Source: Pseudanabaena sp. (GTDB lineage Bacteria > Cyanobacteriota > Cyanobacteriia > Pseudanabaenales > Pseudanabaenaceae). From it: a stretch of 64,000 nt of DNA. Below the pieces are notes generated by a model. It saw only the letters and a program-made list of their open reading frames with translations. It was not told the origin of the DNA and did not search any database. This document shows positions 20,093 to 62,190 of the stretch, piece after piece. Both the position numbers and the translations under genes were made by a program. The DNA lies in contig QBMK01000012.1 in the NCBI GenBank assembly GCA_003249035.1, positions 1 through 64,000 on the forward strand, read 5' to 3'. Numbering within the stretch: position 1 is the first letter of the stretch; every line of letters starts with the position of its first letter.

Positions 20093-20100
20093 CATGAGTT

Positions 20101-20203
20101 ATACCAATTCACAAAAGTGTGACGACAATTTTGTGAATTAAAAAACAAACCCAGTAAGGGTTTTAAAAACACAAAATGGCGGAGCCATTTTGTGTTTTGG
20201 TAT
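20101..20203. repeat. 103-bp three-hairpin repeat, full copy 1
   Basis: Bounded by ATACCAA and TTGGTAT. Inside are three successive palindromes: TTCACAAAAGTGT-type, AAACCC-AGTAA-GGGTTT, and AAACACAAAATGGC around a GGA loop. The same 103-bp unit recurs at 50843-50945 and 58889-58991. It lies just downstream of the response-regulator stop. Confidence 0.85.
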
Positions 20204-20228
20204 TACTTAGTGTTTTTGGTAGTGAGAC

Positions 20229-26841: not shown

Positions 26842-26870
26842 AGTGTCGTCACACTTTTGTGAATTGGTAT
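26842..26870. repeat. Partial copy of the 103-bp repeat (right end)
   Basis: Retains the end hairpin with CACACTTTTGTGAATTGGTA followed by T, matching the terminus of the full copies at 50843 and 58889. The remaining two thirds are absent. It lies upstream of the second REC-kinase gene. Confidence 0.7.
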
Positions 26871-28049: not shown

Positions 28050-28102
28050 ATATCAAAGCCGAAGAGGTGGCACAAAGTGCCACCTCTTCGGCTTTGATAT
28101 TT
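28048..28102. terminator. Perfect 26-bp hairpin, AAA loop
   Basis: Arms 28048-28073 and 28077-28102 are fully complementary; the apex is GTGGCAC-AAA-GTGCCAC. The left arm begins in the stop codon of the kinase gene. Likely terminator; among the longest perfect stems in the window. Confidence 0.7.
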
Positions 28103-50737: not shown

Positions 50738-50842
50738 ACAAGTTACTCATAGGAAATGCCAAACGATCGCTTTTTGCTTGCGACTCCCTCAACTGAGCAT
50801 CAGCCAACTCAGCACAATTCTTGTAAAGGAAAGCGAGTAGTG

Positions 50843-50945
50843 ATACCAAAACACAAAATGGCTACGCCATTTTGTGTTTCTAAAACCCTTACTGGGTTTG
50901 GTCTTTAATTCATAAAAGTGTCGGCACACTTTTGTGAATTGGTAT
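50843..50945. repeat. 103-bp three-hairpin repeat, full copy 2
   Basis: Same unit as 20101-20203 in the opposite orientation, bounded by ATACCAA and TTGGTAT and again 103 bp. It lies just past the last glycosyltransferase gene. The hairpin loop differs (TAC in place of GGA or GTA) while the arms stay paired. Confidence 0.85.
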
Positions 50946-51004
50946 GAGTTAAAATTATTGAGATTGTGCAGACTAAATGCGTAAATTTATGCGAAGGGAC
51001 AAAC

Positions 51005-53187: not shown

Positions 53188-54333
53188 ATGAAGATAGGCG
53201 TAATCAAAGAAATAGAATTTGGAGAGCGTAGAGTCGCTCTAATTCCTGAAGTGGTGAGTCGCTTGGTCAAAAATGGTTTGGAAGTCTTGATTGAGAGTCA
53301 TGCTGGTGAATCATCTTTTTTTGCGGATGCAGCTTATGAAGAAGTTGGAGCCAAGATTATTTCTGACAAGACTGTTCTGATTAATGAATCAGATATTTTA
53401 CTAAAGGTAGGTGCACCTCGCGAAGAAGAAGTGAGCATGTTCAAATCTGGACAAATCGCGATTGGTTTTTTAAATCCTTTAGGAAGACCTGAACTGATTC
53501 GCCGCCTAGCGCAACAGGGGGTAACAGCCATGAGCATGGAGATGATCCCCCGTAGTAGTCGAGCACAAAGTATGGATGCTCTCTCCTCACAGGCTTCGAT
53601 CGCGGGCTATAAAGCTGTGCTGATCGCAGCAGCAGCTTTGCCAAAATATCTGCCAATGCTGACCACCGCCGCAGGTACGATCCCACCTGCCAAAGTGGTG
53701 GTTTTGGGTGCAGGTGTGGCAGGGCTTCAGGCGATCGCAACCGCGCGTCGTCTCGGCGCTCAGGTCGAAGCCTATGATATTCGTCCTGCGGTGCGCGAAG
53801 AAGTGCAGAGCCTTGGTGCAAAATTTATCGATGTCACCTTGGATGAGGATACGACTGCCGATGGTGGCTATGCCAAAGAAATTTCTGAAGCTGCAAAACA
53901 ACATGCTCAGGTCATTCTCGCGAAGCATATTAAGGAAGCGGATATTGTGATTACCACCGCCCAAGTACCTGGACGTAAAGCACCCGTGATGGTGACTGAT
54001 GCGATGATCGCCCACATGAAGCGTGGCTCGATCATTGTCGATATGGCTGGCGAACAAGGGGGCAATTGTGAAGGGACGATCGCGGGCAAAGATGTCATGT
54101 GTCATGGCGCAATGATTATTTCGCCGATCAATCTTCCTTCTTCAATGCCGATCCATGCTTCGCAAAAATACGCGAAGAATCTGCTCAACCTTCTCAATCA
54201 CTTGATCAAGAAAGGCGAACTGGATCTTGATTTTGATGATGACATTATCAGCAGTACCTGTATTACTCACGCTGGCGAAATTCGCAATCAGCGCGTTAAA
54301 GATGCTCTATCTCAACTAGCAGTCGCCGTCTAA
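53188..54333 (+). CDS. pntA: NAD(P) transhydrogenase subunit alpha, part 1 (NAD-binding)
   Basis: A 381-residue soluble dI component. With PntA2 and PntB it forms a membrane proton pump that transfers hydride between NADH and NADP+. It begins MKIGVIKEIEFGERRVALIP, an alanine-dehydrogenase-like fold, with the NAD site KVVVLGAGVAGLQAIATARR and AYDIRPAVREEVQSLGAKFI. The RQDPVDD-type mobile-loop region lies at ITTAQVPGRKAPVMVTDAMI. The membrane part is a separate gene, as in other cyanobacteria. Confidence 0.95.
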   Translation: MKIGVIKEIEFGERRVALIPEVVSRLVKNGLEVLIESHAGESSFFADAAYEEVGAKIISDKTVLINESDILLKVGAPREEEVSMFKSGQIAIGFLNPLGRPELIRRLAQQGVTAMSMEMIPRSSRAQSMDALSSQASIAGYKAVLIAAAALPKYLPMLTTAAGTIPPAKVVVLGAGVAGLQAIATARRLGAQVEAYDIRPAVREEVQSLGAKFIDVTLDEDTTADGGYAKEISEAAKQHAQVILAKHIKEADIVITTAQVPGRKAPVMVTDAMIAHMKRGSIIVDMAGEQGGNCEGTIAGKDVMCHGAMIISPINLPSSMPIHASQKYAKNLLNLLNHLIKKGELDLDFDDDIISSTCITHAGEIRNQRVKDALSQLAVAV

Positions 54334-54400
54334 TATCAAACAAAATGGCGTAGCCATTTTGTTTTTTGAAAACCCCTACTGGGTTTAAGTTTTAATTCAC
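54333..54400. repeat. Partial, diverged copy of the 103-bp repeat between pntA genes
   Basis: The ACAAAATGGC-GTA-GCCATTTTGT hairpin and the following ACCCCTACTGGGTTT palindrome match the full copies at 50843 and 58889; the third hairpin is replaced by unrelated sequence. It begins at the pntA stop codon and lies inside the operon. Confidence 0.7.
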
Positions 54401-57026: not shown

Positions 57027-58658
57027 TTATCGACTCTGAGTATGAAGAAATCGCTCAAAGTCTTCAAGCGGCATCGCTCTAGCAAATAGCCACCCCTGTC
57101 CGTAACTGACTCCTCTATCCTTTAGATACTGATATTGCGCTTCAGTTTCTATGCCTTCGGCAACTATTGTTAACCCTAAACGATCGCCAAAATCAATCAA
57201 GCTATCCACAATCAGCGAAATCTTGCTGCCATTTTCTAGTCCCTTGATGAATAGTTGATCTAGTTTCAGTTGATCGATGTCAAGTTTCTGTAGATAAGCA
57301 ATATTAGAATATCCAGTACCGAAATCATCAATCGCGAAACTAACTCCCCATTTTTTGATCCGAGCGATCGCATCTGAGACAACTTGAGCCTGTTGCTCGA
57401 CTAAGCGATTTTCGGTGATTTCAAATGTGATTTTGGATTGAGCGCGATCGCGTTCTTGCAAAATTTTAATTAGACGCTCTATATCCCCATTATTTAGGTG
57501 AGAGGGTGAGAGATTTATGGAAGTGTAAAGGTCTTGAAACTCTGTTCCTAAAATATTTCGATCTTGAATTACTTTTTCTAGAAGCCATTCAGTTATTTGA
57601 ATGATCAGCCCTGTCTCCTCAGCAATGGGAATAAAAAGCCCTGGATAGAGTAGCCCTCTTTGAGGATGTCTCCATCTCAACAAGGCTTCTGAGCCCACAC
57701 ATTGCCTTGTTTGCAAATCTACAATCGGCTGGTAATAAACCTCAAACTCATTTCGAGAAAGTCCGCATTTTAATTCATAATCTAGGGTGTTGAACTTTCT
57801 CACTTGACGGACAAAGAGATAACTTAAAATACCGCTAATCAATAAGGTTAGAGGAACGCCGATGATAAATTCTTGCATCCAATAGCGAAGTGCCCACTGA
57901 CGATCAATCTCTCCTACAATGATCATTTTCCCAACTTTTGTCGAGCCTGTGACCTGAATTGTATTGAAAGATAGATTCTTGATGTTAGAATTCATGTCTG
58001 GCGGCGGAGTCCCAATCGCTACGAGAATGCGCCGATCGCTTGCCATATATGCAATGTAACCGTTAACTCCTAAATCCAGATCGGGTATAGCTTCTAGAAA
58101 GCTTGTGAGAATTATGGGATCGACGAGTAGATACATGAAGCCTATTTTCCCCGATCCTTTAAGCATCAGAACAATGGATTTCTCTTGCATAAGCTGAGTT
58201 CTGCCTATGCCTAAGATTTGGAGGTTGCGATCTCTTGGGTCAAAGCGATACTTTGAGGGAGATATAGATATTGGTGGGTTTGACACTCCTAAATTAGATA
58301 GAGTCAAAAAGCCTTCTGTATTAACAATGCCGAATTCTCTAAAGCGAAAATCATTGTAAATCTGACGTTGCAGAATATTGATAGCGGTTTGAGTATCCGC
58401 ATTTTGAAGGTCTAGGTTGCTGCGGCGCATCATGTCCTCCGCATTCTCTAATAGCAGGTTAGTTTTCTGCGTGGCTACTTTGATGATGCCTTCCAAATTC
58501 GCTTTGGTGTATGCGATCGCTTGAAAGTAGGAAATAACTAATAGAACAATAGTTGGCAATATGCTAACGACAATAACCCAAAGGGTTGGGTTGCGAAAAA
58601 TTCCAAGCGAACGATGACCTATTGGATACTTGCGATGAGTAGAAATACGGCGAGGCAT
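57027..58658 (-). CDS. Membrane-bound EAL-domain c-di-GMP phosphodiesterase
   Basis: A 543-residue protein. An N-terminal helix (about 23-47, LWVIVVSILPTIVLLVISYF), a periplasmic sensor region to about 270 and a second helix (FIIGVPLTLLISGILSYLFV) flank the sensory domain. The EAL domain spans about 290-540: FEVYYQPIVDLQTRQCVGSE, the EALLRWRHP catalytic motif, ITFEITENRLVEQ, DDFGTGYSNIAYLQKLDIDQ, and VAEGIETEAQYQYLKDRGVS. The key acids are retained, so it can hydrolyse c-di-GMP. No GGDEF domain is present. The signal is unknown. Confidence 0.92.
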   Translation of the reverse strand: MPRRISTHRKYPIGHRSLGIFRNPTLWVIVVSILPTIVLLVISYFQAIAYTKANLEGIIKVATQKTNLLLENAEDMMRRSNLDLQNADTQTAINILQRQIYNDFRFREFGIVNTEGFLTLSNLGVSNPPISISPSKYRFDPRDRNLQILGIGRTQLMQEKSIVLMLKGSGKIGFMYLLVDPIILTSFLEAIPDLDLGVNGYIAYMASDRRILVAIGTPPPDMNSNIKNLSFNTIQVTGSTKVGKMIIVGEIDRQWALRYWMQEFIIGVPLTLLISGILSYLFVRQVRKFNTLDYELKCGLSRNEFEVYYQPIVDLQTRQCVGSEALLRWRHPQRGLLYPGLFIPIAEETGLIIQITEWLLEKVIQDRNILGTEFQDLYTSINLSPSHLNNGDIERLIKILQERDRAQSKITFEITENRLVEQQAQVVSDAIARIKKWGVSFAIDDFGTGYSNIAYLQKLDIDQLKLDQLFIKGLENGSKISLIVDSLIDFGDRLGLTIVAEGIETEAQYQYLKDRGVSYGQGWLFARAMPLEDFERFLHTQSR

Positions 58659-58838
58659 AAACCAAAAGTGTATTTAAGTATTTAATTGGAGAAAATCTTG
58701 TGAATACCATACCATTGATGATACTGACTCTTGGTGATACTGAAATCACCTTTCTAGCGATTTGCAATCTTATCTGAATTCCATTTTCTTCCGTCTTTCC
58801 TTAATCCCAAACCACATGAAGTTTTCCCTATCGTTGTA

Positions 58839-58887
58839 AGCTACCGAGTGGTATCTCCCGAATCGACGTATATGAACTTTCAGGGGT
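58839..58887 (+). pseudogene. Remnant of a duplicated MscS-like gene
   Basis: The plus strand reads KLPSGISRIDVYELSG, which matches KPPSGVTRIGVYEVAR of the mscS-like gene (nucleotides about 60299-60345). The remnant is cut off by the 103-bp repeat at 58889. It shows that a second copy of this gene's 5' region lay here and was destroyed; the rest of it was not found. Confidence 0.7.
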
Positions 58888-58888
58888 A

Positions 58889-58991
58889 ATACCAAAACTA
58901 AAAATGGCGTAGCCATTTTTAGTTTTTAAAACCCTTCCTGAGTTTGGTTTTTAATTCGCAAAAGTGTTGTCACACTTTCGTGAATTGGTAT
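58889..58991. repeat. 103-bp three-hairpin repeat, full copy 3
   Basis: Same length and ends as the other two full copies, in the orientation of copy 2. The main hairpin is AAAACTAAAAATGGC-GTA-GCCATTTTTAGTTTT: its arms differ from AAACACAAAATGGC of the other copies at paired positions, so the differences are compensatory. It adjoins the mscS remnant. Confidence 0.85.
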
Positions 58992-59301
58992 AATGTCACA
59001 TCTGGATAAGGAATAATGACATCTACTTATCTAGAGTTCCCTACATATGGATATGGGGATTTTGCAGTTTCCTCTCTTTACATCTTTACAAAGGATGTGG
59101 GTGTAGCGTTTGTAAACAACCCTACTCGTACCTCTCTAATGTTGATTGTAGGAAGAGTTGAAGCCTAAGTTTGTACTGCTTCCAACATCGCTGAAGTAAT
59201 AGCAGTAAAGGTTTGCAACCAAACTCGTAAGCCCTACTAATTCTTAAGAAACTATTGAATAATATAAAAAAACAGAAAAGTAGTATGTATATTTTAGTGA
59301 T
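58992..59301. other. Spacer between the repeat and the IS1-like remnant
   Basis: No gene is seen. The left end of the insertion sequence should lie here but no sequence matching the candidate right end (GGTAGTCCTCC) was found. Confidence 0.35.
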
Positions 59302-60008
59302 TTAAACAAGTAAGGATGAATTATAGTGGTCAATAAAGAGCCACATAGCACCAATGTGATTTTCTAGTTTTTTAGAGAAAGAGAGATTTTTGCGAACCAA
59401 TCGAGAGACACGTTGACGCATCGTACAGTTAAAACGCTCAACATAATTTGTTTGACCAGTTTCCTTCCCAACTATCTTGTGACGTTGTTCAGGAAACACA
59501 AGAGCGTAAGCACTCCAAAAATTCGTGTAAGCTACCGCACACAGTCGGTAGACATCTGGCAATGAATCCCAAAGTTCTATGGCTCCTTGTTCAGAGCGAT
59601 CGCCGATATGAACCCCGACAATTTCGCGGGTTTCGACATCAAGAGCAAGCCAAATCCACTGTTTGTTACCTTTATTCCCAACAAACGACCACATTTCATC
59701 ACATTGAATCGTTAGTCTTCTTTTTTTAGACGATACATTCACTTGTCGGGGCATCGACTCGTATTTGCGATTGACATAATCCTGCAACCTAGTTTCAGAA
59801 ACATCGCAAACCATCGCAATACTATCAAGAGGAATCTTTTCGAAATAGTTTATCAATCAGGGCTTTGGACTCTTCAGAGATTATTTTCTGCAGTGGTGCT
59901 TCAACAAACTGGCGACCACAGGTTTTACATTTGTAGTTTTGGTTCCCGTTATGGATAAAACCATTTTTGACAACATCTTTATGATTCACAGTTTGGACAA
60001 TTTGGCAT
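59302..60008 (-). pseudogene. IS1-family transposase, broken by two frameshifts
   Basis: Read on the minus strand, the frame starts MPNCPNCES at 60008 and stops at 59979-59981; the next frame continues KDVVKNGFIHNGNQNYKCKT and VEAPLQKIISEESKALIDK to a TGA at 59825-59827; the last frame carries MVCDVSETRLQDYVNRKYES, QCDEMWSFVGNKGNKQWIWL and NYVERFNCTMRQRVSRLVRK (the DDE domain). The first part is the zinc-ribbon InsA-like region and the last the InsB-like catalytic region. IS1 elements can use ribosomal frameshifting at one junction, but here two shifts are needed. A candidate right end is GGTAGTCCTCC (complement near 60065). Confidence 0.85.
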
Positions 60009-60156
60009 TTCTAATCAGACTAAAAGTTTCCTTATAATTTTATCCTTACATTTGGAGGACTACCTTTGTGCTTTGGTATTATTTCCGCTAAGTGGGAATA
60101 AAATCTTTTGATATTTGGTATTAATTCCGTCGATCAATTATTCATTCTCCATATTT

Positions 60157-61950
60157 ATGTTTTTGTTTAAGCGCTTGCGTCGTCTAATAATTCGATTTGT
60201 GCTAATCAGTCTGTTAGCGATCGCATTAGTAATCAGTTGGAGTGAACTTGCTCATAGCCAACTTCCTTCATTGCCTACCTTAGACTCCGCCAATTCGCAT
60301 AAGCCACCGAGTGGTGTCACCCGCATCGGTGTATATGAAGTTGCAAGGGTGATTTCACAGGTGGATAAGAAGCTGTTGTTTGAGATTGTCTCACCCACTA
60401 TTTTTAATCGAGACCGACCGAAAGAAAATACCCTTCCAGTGGAAGTGCGTGCCGAAGAAATAATGGAGCGGTTAAATCGATTGACTATTCGAGTCATGAA
60501 TTCTAAACAAACGCCAAAAGTTACTATTGGCAAGCTCAACGATCGCCCAATTCTTCAGCTTGAAGACGATCAATCGTCGCGACCATTAAGACTGGTGACA
60601 ATAACTGAACCTGATGCTGACTATCTAGGCAAAACTAAAGAAGAAGTGACGAACGAATGGCAGAAAATACTACAAACAGAAGTGAACCGCATTGACGAAC
60701 TGTTTTCTCCAGAAGTATTGTCTCAAAGATCTTGGAATGCCACCCAAATAATTATTGGATTGGTGTTTATCAGCCTATTGATATGGCTTTTGAGGCGAAT
60801 GTTGATTACTAAACAGAAAGCATTACAGACTCGCAATTTAGAGACCCAAGCCGCCGCATCAAAGACTGCTGCTATGGAGACATCTCTCGACTTAGAGATC
60901 AGTCAAGAAGAATTAGAGGTCGAAGTAATATCAAAAAAGCGATCGCGATTTTTAAAATTACTTCAGTATCAATTTACACTCGATCGCCAACTAGAAATCT
61001 ATGGCTTTCTGCACTGGTTTTTGTTTTGGTTATTTATCTTTTTGTGGTATGTCGGCATTTCATTCATTGTTTCTCACGTTCCTTTTCTGATGCGATGGTC
61101 ATTAGAAATGCTCTCTGACCCTCTCATACTGATAGTTTTTTGGTTTTTGCTTAGTCTTGCAATTCGATTAGTTCATAGCTTAACCGATCGTCTCATCCAT
61201 GCATGGACAAAACATCTAGATCTTCCAGTAAATGAAACTCAGCGTCTCTCTCTGCGAGCCATTACCGTTTCTAGAGCATTAAAAGGGTTCACCACCTTTA
61301 CCTTTATTACGCTCGGTATCGTTTGGACATTGAATTTATTTAACGTACCCACTGGCTCAATTTTGGCAGGGGGAGCGCTGATTGGTATCGCAATTTCTCT
61401 GGGTTCCCAAAGTTTGATCAAAGATCTTGTAAATGGCTGCTTGATTTTGATAGAAGATCAATTTGCGGTGGGCGATATTATTCAGATTGGCGACAAAAGC
61501 GGGCTAGTGGAAAAACTCAACTTACGGGTGACTCAACTGCGAGATAGTCAAGGTAAGCTCATCACTATTCGTAATAGCAACATTACCGAAGTCAGTAACT
61601 TAACTCGACTTTGGGCTCGGGTAGATTTTTCGATTGTTGTAGATTATGACAACGATCCTAAGGAGGTTCTTGATGTTTTGAACCAGGTATCACAGCAGCT
61701 TTACAACGAGACAGAATGGCGCGATCGCATACTCAATCCACCAGAAGTTTTGGGCATTGATGAATTGTCGCATAATGGAATGCTGATGCGCGTCTGGATT
61801 CAGACAATGCCCATGCAGCAATGGATCGTCGGTCGAGAATTTCATCTGCGCGTGCGGCAAGCATTTCAATCAAAAAATATCCAAATTGGCAGACCGCAAT
61901 TAGTCAACTACAACAATGATATTAGCGCTATGAGCAAATCCCAAGAATAG
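60157..61950 (+). CDS. MscS-family mechanosensitive channel, large form
   Basis: A 597-residue channel protein. A signal-like helix (LIIRFVLISLLAIALVISWS) is followed by an extracytoplasmic region of about 150 residues and several membrane helices (ATQIIIGLVFISLLIWLLRR, WFLFWLFIFLWYVGISFIVS, ILIVFWFLLSLAIRLVHSLT, TFTFITLGIVWTLNLFNVP). The pore helix and beta domain are clear: GSILAGGALIGIAISLGSQS, DLVNGCLILIEDQFAVGDII and VTQLRDSQGKLITIRNSNIT. It is expected to release solutes on osmotic downshift. I choose the ATG at 60157. Its 5' region is duplicated at 58839. Confidence 0.92.
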   Translation: MFLFKRLRRLIIRFVLISLLAIALVISWSELAHSQLPSLPTLDSANSHKPPSGVTRIGVYEVARVISQVDKKLLFEIVSPTIFNRDRPKENTLPVEVRAEEIMERLNRLTIRVMNSKQTPKVTIGKLNDRPILQLEDDQSSRPLRLVTITEPDADYLGKTKEEVTNEWQKILQTEVNRIDELFSPEVLSQRSWNATQIIIGLVFISLLIWLLRRMLITKQKALQTRNLETQAAASKTAAMETSLDLEISQEELEVEVISKKRSRFLKLLQYQFTLDRQLEIYGFLHWFLFWLFIFLWYVGISFIVSHVPFLMRWSLEMLSDPLILIVFWFLLSLAIRLVHSLTDRLIHAWTKHLDLPVNETQRLSLRAITVSRALKGFTTFTFITLGIVWTLNLFNVPTGSILAGGALIGIAISLGSQSLIKDLVNGCLILIEDQFAVGDIIQIGDKSGLVEKLNLRVTQLRDSQGKLITIRNSNITEVSNLTRLWARVDFSIVVDYDNDPKEVLDVLNQVSQQLYNETEWRDRILNPPEVLGIDELSHNGMLMRVWIQTMPMQQWIVGREFHLRVRQAFQSKNIQIGRPQLVNYNNDISAMSKSQE

Positions 61951-61953
61951 TTA

Positions 61954-61996
61954 ATACCAAAACACAAAATGGCGTAGCCATTTTGTGTTTTGGTAT
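61954..61996. repeat. Short palindromic form of the 103-bp repeat
   Basis: ATACCAAAACACAAAATGGC (61954-61973), GTA, and the exact complement to 61996: a perfect 20-bp hairpin. It matches one end hairpin of the 103-bp unit, closed on itself so that both ends read ATACCAA/TTGGTAT. It begins 3 bp after the mscS stop and can act as its terminator-like end. Confidence 0.85.
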
Positions 61997-62141
61997 TAGA
62001 ACAAAAAGATTATGATTAGCTTAACTACAGCCCTATAGGAACAATATGGCTGTAAAATCGTTCAAAATCGCAATGTCTACAAAACAACAATTTTCACAAA
62101 TCAGTGATTTAAATAATAAGTACCTGTGCAGAATAAGTTAC

Positions 62142-62190
62142 CCAAACCCATAAAGTTGCGCCCCGCAGGGGCGCAACTTTATGGGTTTGG
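62142..62190. repeat. Perfect 23-bp hairpin, GCA loop
   Basis: Arms 62142-62164 and 62168-62190 are fully complementary; the apex is GCGCCCC-GCA-GGGGCGC. It lies 64 bp upstream of the small secreted-protein gene and within its likely leader, so it is not a simple 3' terminator for that gene; it may end readthrough from mscS. Confidence 0.7.

Follow-up and report, generated by a model that had tools for sequence, protein, structure and literature searches.

A genus-wide MITE of Pseudanabaena and its putative partner, an apparently undescribed three-base-pair variant of the IS630 superfamily

The window, a stretch of 64,000 nucleotides from Pseudanabaena sp. that was analysed as a whole, harbors a dispersed repeat built of three palindromes, termed hp1, hp2 and hp3. 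The first-pass annotation described three full copies of constant length in both orientations, and all three lie at the coordinates claimed with the order hp1-hp2-hp3 in common. The length is indeed constant, but the figure of 103 bp is not that of the unit, which spans 101 bp from TACCAA to TTGGTA; the outer A and T are parts of 3-bp duplications. One full copy occupies 20102..20202 on the minus strand (hp3-hp2-hp1 on the plus strand) between TTA at 20099-20101 and TTA at 20203-20205, and is 93% identical to the copy at 50843. This second copy, 50844..50944 on the plus strand (hp1-hp2-hp3), lies between TGA trinucleotides at 50841-50843 and 50945-50947, and the third, 58890..58990 on the plus strand, between TAA trinucleotides at 58887-58889 and 58991-58993. 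One of the three is thus inverted relative to the other two. The alignment reveals two coupled changes in the hp1 arms of the third copy (AACTAAAAATGGC / GCCATTTTTAGTT). The unit is short and non-coding with the terminal inverted repeats TACCAA/TTGGTA, as is characteristic of a MITE.

The partial copies that had been reported are also real. At 26842..26870 (plus strand) the 3′ half alone remains, consisting of hp3 and the right tip, and at 54333..54400 (plus strand), in the gap that separates pntA from the following pnt gene, a decayed copy retains hp1, hp2 and a stub and has lost hp3. The closed palindrome reported at 61954-61996 is a solo 41-bp form without strand, composed of two left tips (61955..61995) and flanked by TAA and TTA with no direct duplication; its perfect pairing extends to 61952-61998. 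A relic of a tip of the partner-type insertion sequence (IS) described below, TACCAAAGCACAAA on the minus strand at 60065..60078, abuts an IS1-family insertion. The latter, at 59303-60066, is a broken copy that has a 94% copy at G000:C11:173446 (genomes, contigs and loci are given as G, C and L numbers).

The family extends far beyond the window. A first sequence search of the window's own genome listed 41 matches of at least 98 bp (E ≤ 4.9e-22), and a covariance model matched 150/150 scored candidates (E ≤ 3.3e-11), giving at least 150 near-full copies, an abundance far beyond chance. The survey of relatives covered 58 genomes, namely the own genome, 25 others of the genus, nine of the family outside the genus and 23 of the class. 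The MITE was detected in 26/26 Pseudanabaena genomes and in 0/32 genomes outside the genus, with filtering under which weak matches may be missed. Scanning named genomes for the pattern gave at least 69 stretches, and those listed all belong to Pseudanabaena or to Phormidium tenue FACHB-1050. Four plasmid records contain the MITE, all from Pseudanabaena and one with half of the unit, while phage records and viral contigs contain none.

Several other repeats are present in these genomes. A second hairpin repeat, AAATCAAAACCCAA-GC-rich stem-TTGGGTTTTATGTCCTA, is abundant throughout the genus with dozens of matches, often lies beside TATAGCTGTCGCCA-like sequence, and may be another MITE family; examples are found at L304 (G011:C77), at L303 (G005:C18) and in the flank of L044 (1508-1607). 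A third repeat of ∼100 bp, containing a GAACGCCAAAATTTTTAAAAAG...GGCGTTCG hairpin, lies in the flank of L191 (225-327) and has matches in several genomes of the genus. Long perfect hairpins occur at 62142-62190 and 28051-28099 of the window and at L043, L101, L132 and other loci. They are mostly GC-rich, many have AACCAA/TTGGTT feet, their sequences mostly differ, and they look like terminators.

The first-pass annotation proposed a search for target duplications and empty sites. The MITE loci collected gave 147 full matches, of which 141 remained after repeats with identical flanks and any copy within 30 bp of a locus end were dropped; these are the best search matches rather than a random sample, and as some may be orthologues, not all are independent. 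Counting the outer A and T, 129/141 copies measure exactly 103 bp. Identical 3-mers on both sides, of the kind seen at the three window copies (TTA, TGA, TAA), are found in 115/141, mostly TAA (62) or TTA (49), and are missing in the remaining 26. The middle bases of the two flanks are strongly associated (A/A 67, T/T 54, A/T 6, T/A 2; Fisher p=7.5e-27).

Two empty sites are clean. In G016 (L298) the sequence reads GAACTAA-MITE-TAAGAG, and the empty site in G019 and G018 (L300, L301) is GAACTAAGAG with one TAA. In G004 (L307) it reads GTTTAA-MITE-TAAAAC, and the empty site in G014 (L308) is GTTTAAAAC, again with one TAA. A third, L139 aligned with L200 and L201, has 0 gaps but carries substitutions in the target, so that the empty 3-mer is AAA or CAA. 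At the level of sequence, these sites settle that the MITE is inserted with an exact 3-bp duplication. Two further loci, L165 (G005) and L305 (G011), look like one insertion in which the middle segment is inverted and 29 bp of flank is gone; the case does not rest on this pair because the flanks of L165 are mismatched (TAA/TTA). The spacing of search hits suggested orthologous insertions at L018 and its matches in G008, G016 and G018; the alignment shows no element there. With 57027-60800 of the window as the empty-site query, the matches were swamped by the MITE itself and by the IS1-family copy.

Some regions appear to have received the MITE more than once. Two species carry apparently independent insertions in one corresponding intergenic region, at L009 (G000:C59) and L298 (G016:C4). 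Tandem pairs share or abut one TNA, as when a new copy inserts at the border of an earlier one (L127:42-251, L118:2940-3150, L128:4468-4678 and L024:1396-1603).

The identification of a partner relied on tip-like sequences that are not followed by hp1 or hp3; among those listed was an end joined directly to the C-terminus of an IS630-type protein. A search with this IS630-type protein in the 26 genus genomes revealed elements with both ends present at L171 (1143 bp), L191 (1150 bp, in the own genome) and L180 (1141 bp), and an internally deleted one at L176; L143, recognised before this search, is a second deleted element. By eye, the translation of L143 suggested an IS256 element, but on its left it carries the IS630-type end described above. 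All five have a matching TTA or TAA on both sides (5/5), with L177 left out of the count as a repeat of L176 in a sister genome. A copy with a mutated tip (L190) has TTA on both sides, and two others (L193 and L178) are without a matching flank pair. An empty site also exists for the IS: L180 (G021) aligned with L235 (G025) agrees at 135/141 positions with 0 gaps and exactly one TTA, and GATTTAAAGG at the empty site reads GATTTA-IS-TTAAAGG when occupied.

The IS with matching inverted-repeat ends that the first-pass annotation suggested should be sought is therefore represented by this ∼1.14-kb element, which shares both ends with the MITE. The left tip of the MITE, TACCAAAACACAAA, equals the IS end on the side of the first ORF over 14 bp in L176 and L143; L171 has a single mismatch there, and L191 and L180 have more. 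The right tip, TACCAATTCACAAAAG, agrees with the other IS end, TACCAAATCACAAAAG, at 15/16 positions. Each tip matches its own IS end, and the MITE therefore preserves even the asymmetry of the IS ends. These five loci (L171, L180, L191, L176 and L143) represent the putative autonomous source, and the ∼1.14-kb IS is the likely mover of the MITE. The copies in the own genome look dead, consisting of one near-full copy broken in several frames and of fragments. The partner IS is detected in 18/26 genus genomes at E ≤ 0.001, several of them weak or other IS630 matches; the MITE, as noted, is in all of them. A stretch of ∼115 bp at L128:5805-5921 with partner-IS-like ends and no hairpins is possibly a different deletion derivative.

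Transposases of two other classes were considered as partners. Loci with PF01609 (DDE_Tnp_1) show a tip pair around the transposase in 0/9 cases; one holds a separate MITE copy and one a single partner-type tip. Y1 transposases (RAYT) would be the agents if the repeats were REP/BIME/REPIN-like hairpins, as the first-pass annotation also suggested, and the inverted hairpins, intergenic position, high copy number and two Y1_Tnp matches in the genome accord with this. Around the two Y1 loci of the own genome the tips are no better than chance-like, with 3-4 mismatches; the consensus foot carries no GTAG/CGTC, the tag named in the title of PMC3733652. Moreover, precise 3-bp target duplications with empty sites, and a DDE partner whose tips and duplication are the same, argue against dispersal by Y1, which we regard as extremely improbable. 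The MITE-like reading offered alongside it is borne out by the copies across genome and genus, the empty sites and duplications, and the IS with the same inverted repeats.

The assignment of the partner to IS630 relies on profile matches. The second halves of the transposase score 129.9 bits (L171) and 124.8 bits (L180) against NF033545, above the cut-off of 100, and the first halves alone remain below it (82.2 for L171, 69.9 for L180). The DDE_3 profile matches at 61.1 (cut-off 28.6), and the best solved relative of the second ORF is Sleeping Beauty (E=5e-4). Relatives are present in 45/386 genomes of the phylum and 31/142 genera (E ≤ 1e-20). Thirty relative IS copies were collected from eight other genomes, and ends were set for 27; the ends of the G106 copies L316, L362 and L363 could not be set, and these were left out of the duplication count. 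A matching 3-mer flanks 24/27 (TTA 12, TGA 4, TCA 4, TAA 3, TTC 1) and is missing in 3/27. L349 and L350 (G057) are not independent: their left flank is common to both, and in L350 two left tips each follow a TTA. In L325 and L351, also of G057, the duplications are exchanged (TGA..TTA and TTA..TGA), the pattern that recombination between copies would leave. Seven proteins were scanned, one per set for seven of the eight sets, and 7/7 pass NF033545; the eighth has a stop within the range.

These counts bear on whether the repeat is an ordinary IS630/mariner MITE that duplicates the 2-bp TA, with the apparent TNA reflecting no more than target preference. The transposase is of the IS630 family, TA stands at the tip, and in the available part of PMC2170065 the cyanobacterial ISY100 duplicates TA, and IS630/Tc1-mariner elements insert at TA only with a 2-bp duplication. 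Against this, the middle base agrees on both sides, TCA/TCA and TGA/TGA included, the empty sites hold a single TNA rather than TNATATNA, and the 3-bp repeat that recurs among the related IS copies of eight genomes is missing from a control treated alike, in which two TA-type IS630 elements from the genus, with 5 and 4 copies and TA tips, show a matching 3-mer beyond the tips in 0/9 copies (flanks compared by eye). A plain TA duplication has, in our judgement, next to no chance of being the right account. The spacing of the active site also diverges: the second D and the E lie 31 residues apart in 11/12 elements and 32 in one, and 34 apart in the two TA-type controls (by eye). The partner thus has the profile of IS630 without its TA target, 2-bp duplication or DD34E spacing. 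The two transposase frames meet at a TTTAAAAAAA(A)C run in 6/12 elements (L313, L342, L321, L320, L171 and L180), and a programmed slip is therefore likely there, as a candidate. Taken together, the partner is apparently an undescribed IS630 variant defined by a 3-bp, mostly TNA, duplication and a 31-residue D-E spacing; among the titles listed from the open-access literature, none suggested a published account of an IS630 element with a TWA, TNA or 3-bp duplication or DD31E. If true, a 3-bp TNA branch with a shorter D-E spacing would make a link between active-site geometry and cut stagger testable.

The prevalence of the MITE differs sharply between genes and intergenic regions. With the element spliced out, 6/109 usable copies lie inside an ORF of at least 90 codons (ATG or GTG starts; 32/141 copies unusable), compared with 73% of TWA sites. 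Counting without removal of the element gave 0 copies inside ORFs, a figure that is uninformative because the element itself can break an ORF. Gaps between convergent genes hold 31/103 intergenic copies where 23.1 are expected, and a TAA stop codon is the duplicated site in 15/103, where random intergenic TWA sites predict 7.9 (maximum 16 in 1000 draws). Gene avoidance is therefore strong and gene-end preference slight, so that the data bear out only weakly the earlier statement that most copies directly follow gene ends. The copy placed inside the pnt operon is real as the 54333..54400 relic, which starts in the pntA stop codon, but that contact is probably secondary. The relic is present in 4/16 pntA orthologues (G000, G008, G016 and G018); in the other 12, G019 included, it is absent from the 190 bp read downstream of the stop codon. 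In G008 and G018, stop and relic are some 150 bp apart with other sequence in between, and the contact in the window is therefore probably a later deletion.

The outer palindromes themselves vary in a coupled manner. Among 129 copies, hp1 shows 68 complementary double, 3 non-complementary double and 30 single changes (∼1.5 complementary expected if independent), hp3 37, 3 and 134 (∼2.0 expected), and hp2 1, 0 and 80 (∼0.7 expected); these are cells rather than events, and the doubles per copy include inherited ones. The three palindromes are thus in the order first reported, but hp2, with its single complementary double against 80 single changes, shows no sign of being kept as a hairpin. The doubles fall into 11 types in hp1 and 11 in hp3, and three single types, probably inherited, make up 68/134 single cells of hp3. 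Among types seen once, doubles number 4/20 in hp1, 3/26 in hp3 and 1/12 in hp2 (Fisher p=1.0). As these types have no excess of doubles over hp2, the counts do not establish in-place correction after insertion, and most of this excess may stem from the earlier evolution of the source elements.

Such pairing could reflect selection on RNA, in which the hairpins are kept as terminators, mRNA stabilisers or small RNAs and mobility is secondary. The strong paired arms with coupled changes, and the slightly raised counts at stop codons and in gaps between convergent genes, favour this account, and the counts of changes seen once are compatible with it. The broken pairs speak otherwise, with G-T:A-C ratios of 9:8 in hp1, 54:57 in hp3 and 20:32 in hp2; G-T is not in excess over A-C, and therefore no RNA strand is favoured. 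In hp1 the loop reads TAC in 46 copies and GTA in 42, as flipping predicts. The hp3 loop is mostly in one orientation and rarely flipped, and hp3 has more single than double changes. Some palindromes run into the flank, and Rfam at gathering scores gives no match at the MITE places, a tRNA being the sole match in the window. Maintenance as RNA is accordingly an unlikely explanation, though less so than the Y1 and TA alternatives.

Template switching at quasipalindromes is described as homogenising arms and inverting spacers (PMC8604942, in part) and as upkeep of hairpins (PMC8794818, in part). In the MITE, arms of at least 24 pairs, reaching past the element tip, occur in 10/362 hairpin cores. 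By eye, the hp3-hp2 stretch of L138, L142 and L152 now complements the tip and the adjoining flank, the rewriting ending where the flank resembles GGGTTT of hp2, and in L160 outside sequence matches the sequence running from hp2 towards hp3. Bases derived from the flank cannot arrive by transposition, and at least these few cases therefore arose in place. DNA template switching fits the palindromes better than RNA selection, while many coupled changes may be inherited. Among the solo 41-bp palindromes, three loci (L044, L109 and L144) have matching 3-mers and the others, including that of the window, have none; no empty site of this form was present among the matches listed, and the mscS-type matches for the 61954 site, at 30-47% identity, are too diverged to judge insertion.

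Overall, the repeat is very probably a MITE, a non-autonomous derivative of a Pseudanabaena IS630-superfamily element, by the mechanism proposed here. The evidence lies in the sequences: the family itself, its duplications, the empty sites, the shared tips and the coupled changes. In the proposed mechanism, the IS transposase, consisting of an HTH half and a DDE half in two frames often meeting at an A-run, would recognise the shared tips TACCAAWNCACAAA and excise the element, which would be reinserted at TNA, mostly TWA, with 3 bp duplicated. Genic insertions are rare, probably lost by selection, leaving copies between genes; occasional insertions into TAA stop codons would restore the stop through the duplication. 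We infer that a transposase of the L171/L180 type moves the MITE, and by cut-and-paste chemistry. After insertion, hp1 and hp3 would fold as DNA hairpins during replication, and template switching would match the arms, flip the loop and sometimes carry tip sequence, together with adjacent flank from outside, over to the inner arm; it may also yield the solo 41-bp palindromes. We consider this replication step probable. It also seems fairly likely that a distinct cyanobacterial IS630-like branch (DD31E, two frames often meeting at poly-A) has abandoned the TA rule for a 3-bp TNA stagger and that one of its members has spread MITEs through all Pseudanabaena genomes examined, the palindromic ends of these MITEs being reshaped on site by template switching. 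With its many copies, empty sites and known source sequence, the family may offer an extensive natural archive of template switching at DNA hairpins. In practice, the MITE accounts for a frequent interspersed repeat in Pseudanabaena, one to mask during annotation and in searches for terminators and small RNAs.

Bacterial genomes harbor other IS630-derived MITEs, such as Correia/NEMIS, RUP and Nezha, which are small, non-coding, intergenic and of high copy number with inverted ends. The Pseudanabaena MITE is set apart from their descriptions by its 3-bp TNA duplication and palindromic ends, and among the open-access titles listed on cyanobacterial IS630 MITEs and on Pseudanabaena repeats, none pointed to this family. 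MITEs of the IS5/PIF-Harbinger group (Tourist type) have a 3-bp TWA duplication. The present family shares this duplication and differs in its transposase, which is of the DDE_3/IS630 type rather than the IS5/Harbinger type with DDE_Tnp_1. Compared with ISY100-type IS630/Tc1-mariner elements, the partner is alike in its HTH and DDE_3 domains, a DDE half over the NF033545 cut-off, a length of ∼1.1 kb, short inverted repeats and TA at the tips. It differs in the 3-bp, mostly TNA, duplication instead of TA, in the 31 residues from the second D to the E, and in its two frames, in contrast with the single transposase gene given for ISY100 in the available part of PMC2170065. As far as descriptions can be compared, MITE group 1 of Anabaena sp. 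90 is also cyanobacterial and also has three inverted-repeat sets; in the available part of PMC3542288 no matching IS was found for it and it is called type II, whereas the Pseudanabaena MITE has a candidate partner IS. Finally, the arm homogenisation and spacer inversion resemble quasipalindrome template switching as described in the available parts of PMC8604942 and PMC8794818, with the difference that here they occur in a mobile-element family, in which tip and flank are copied into the element.
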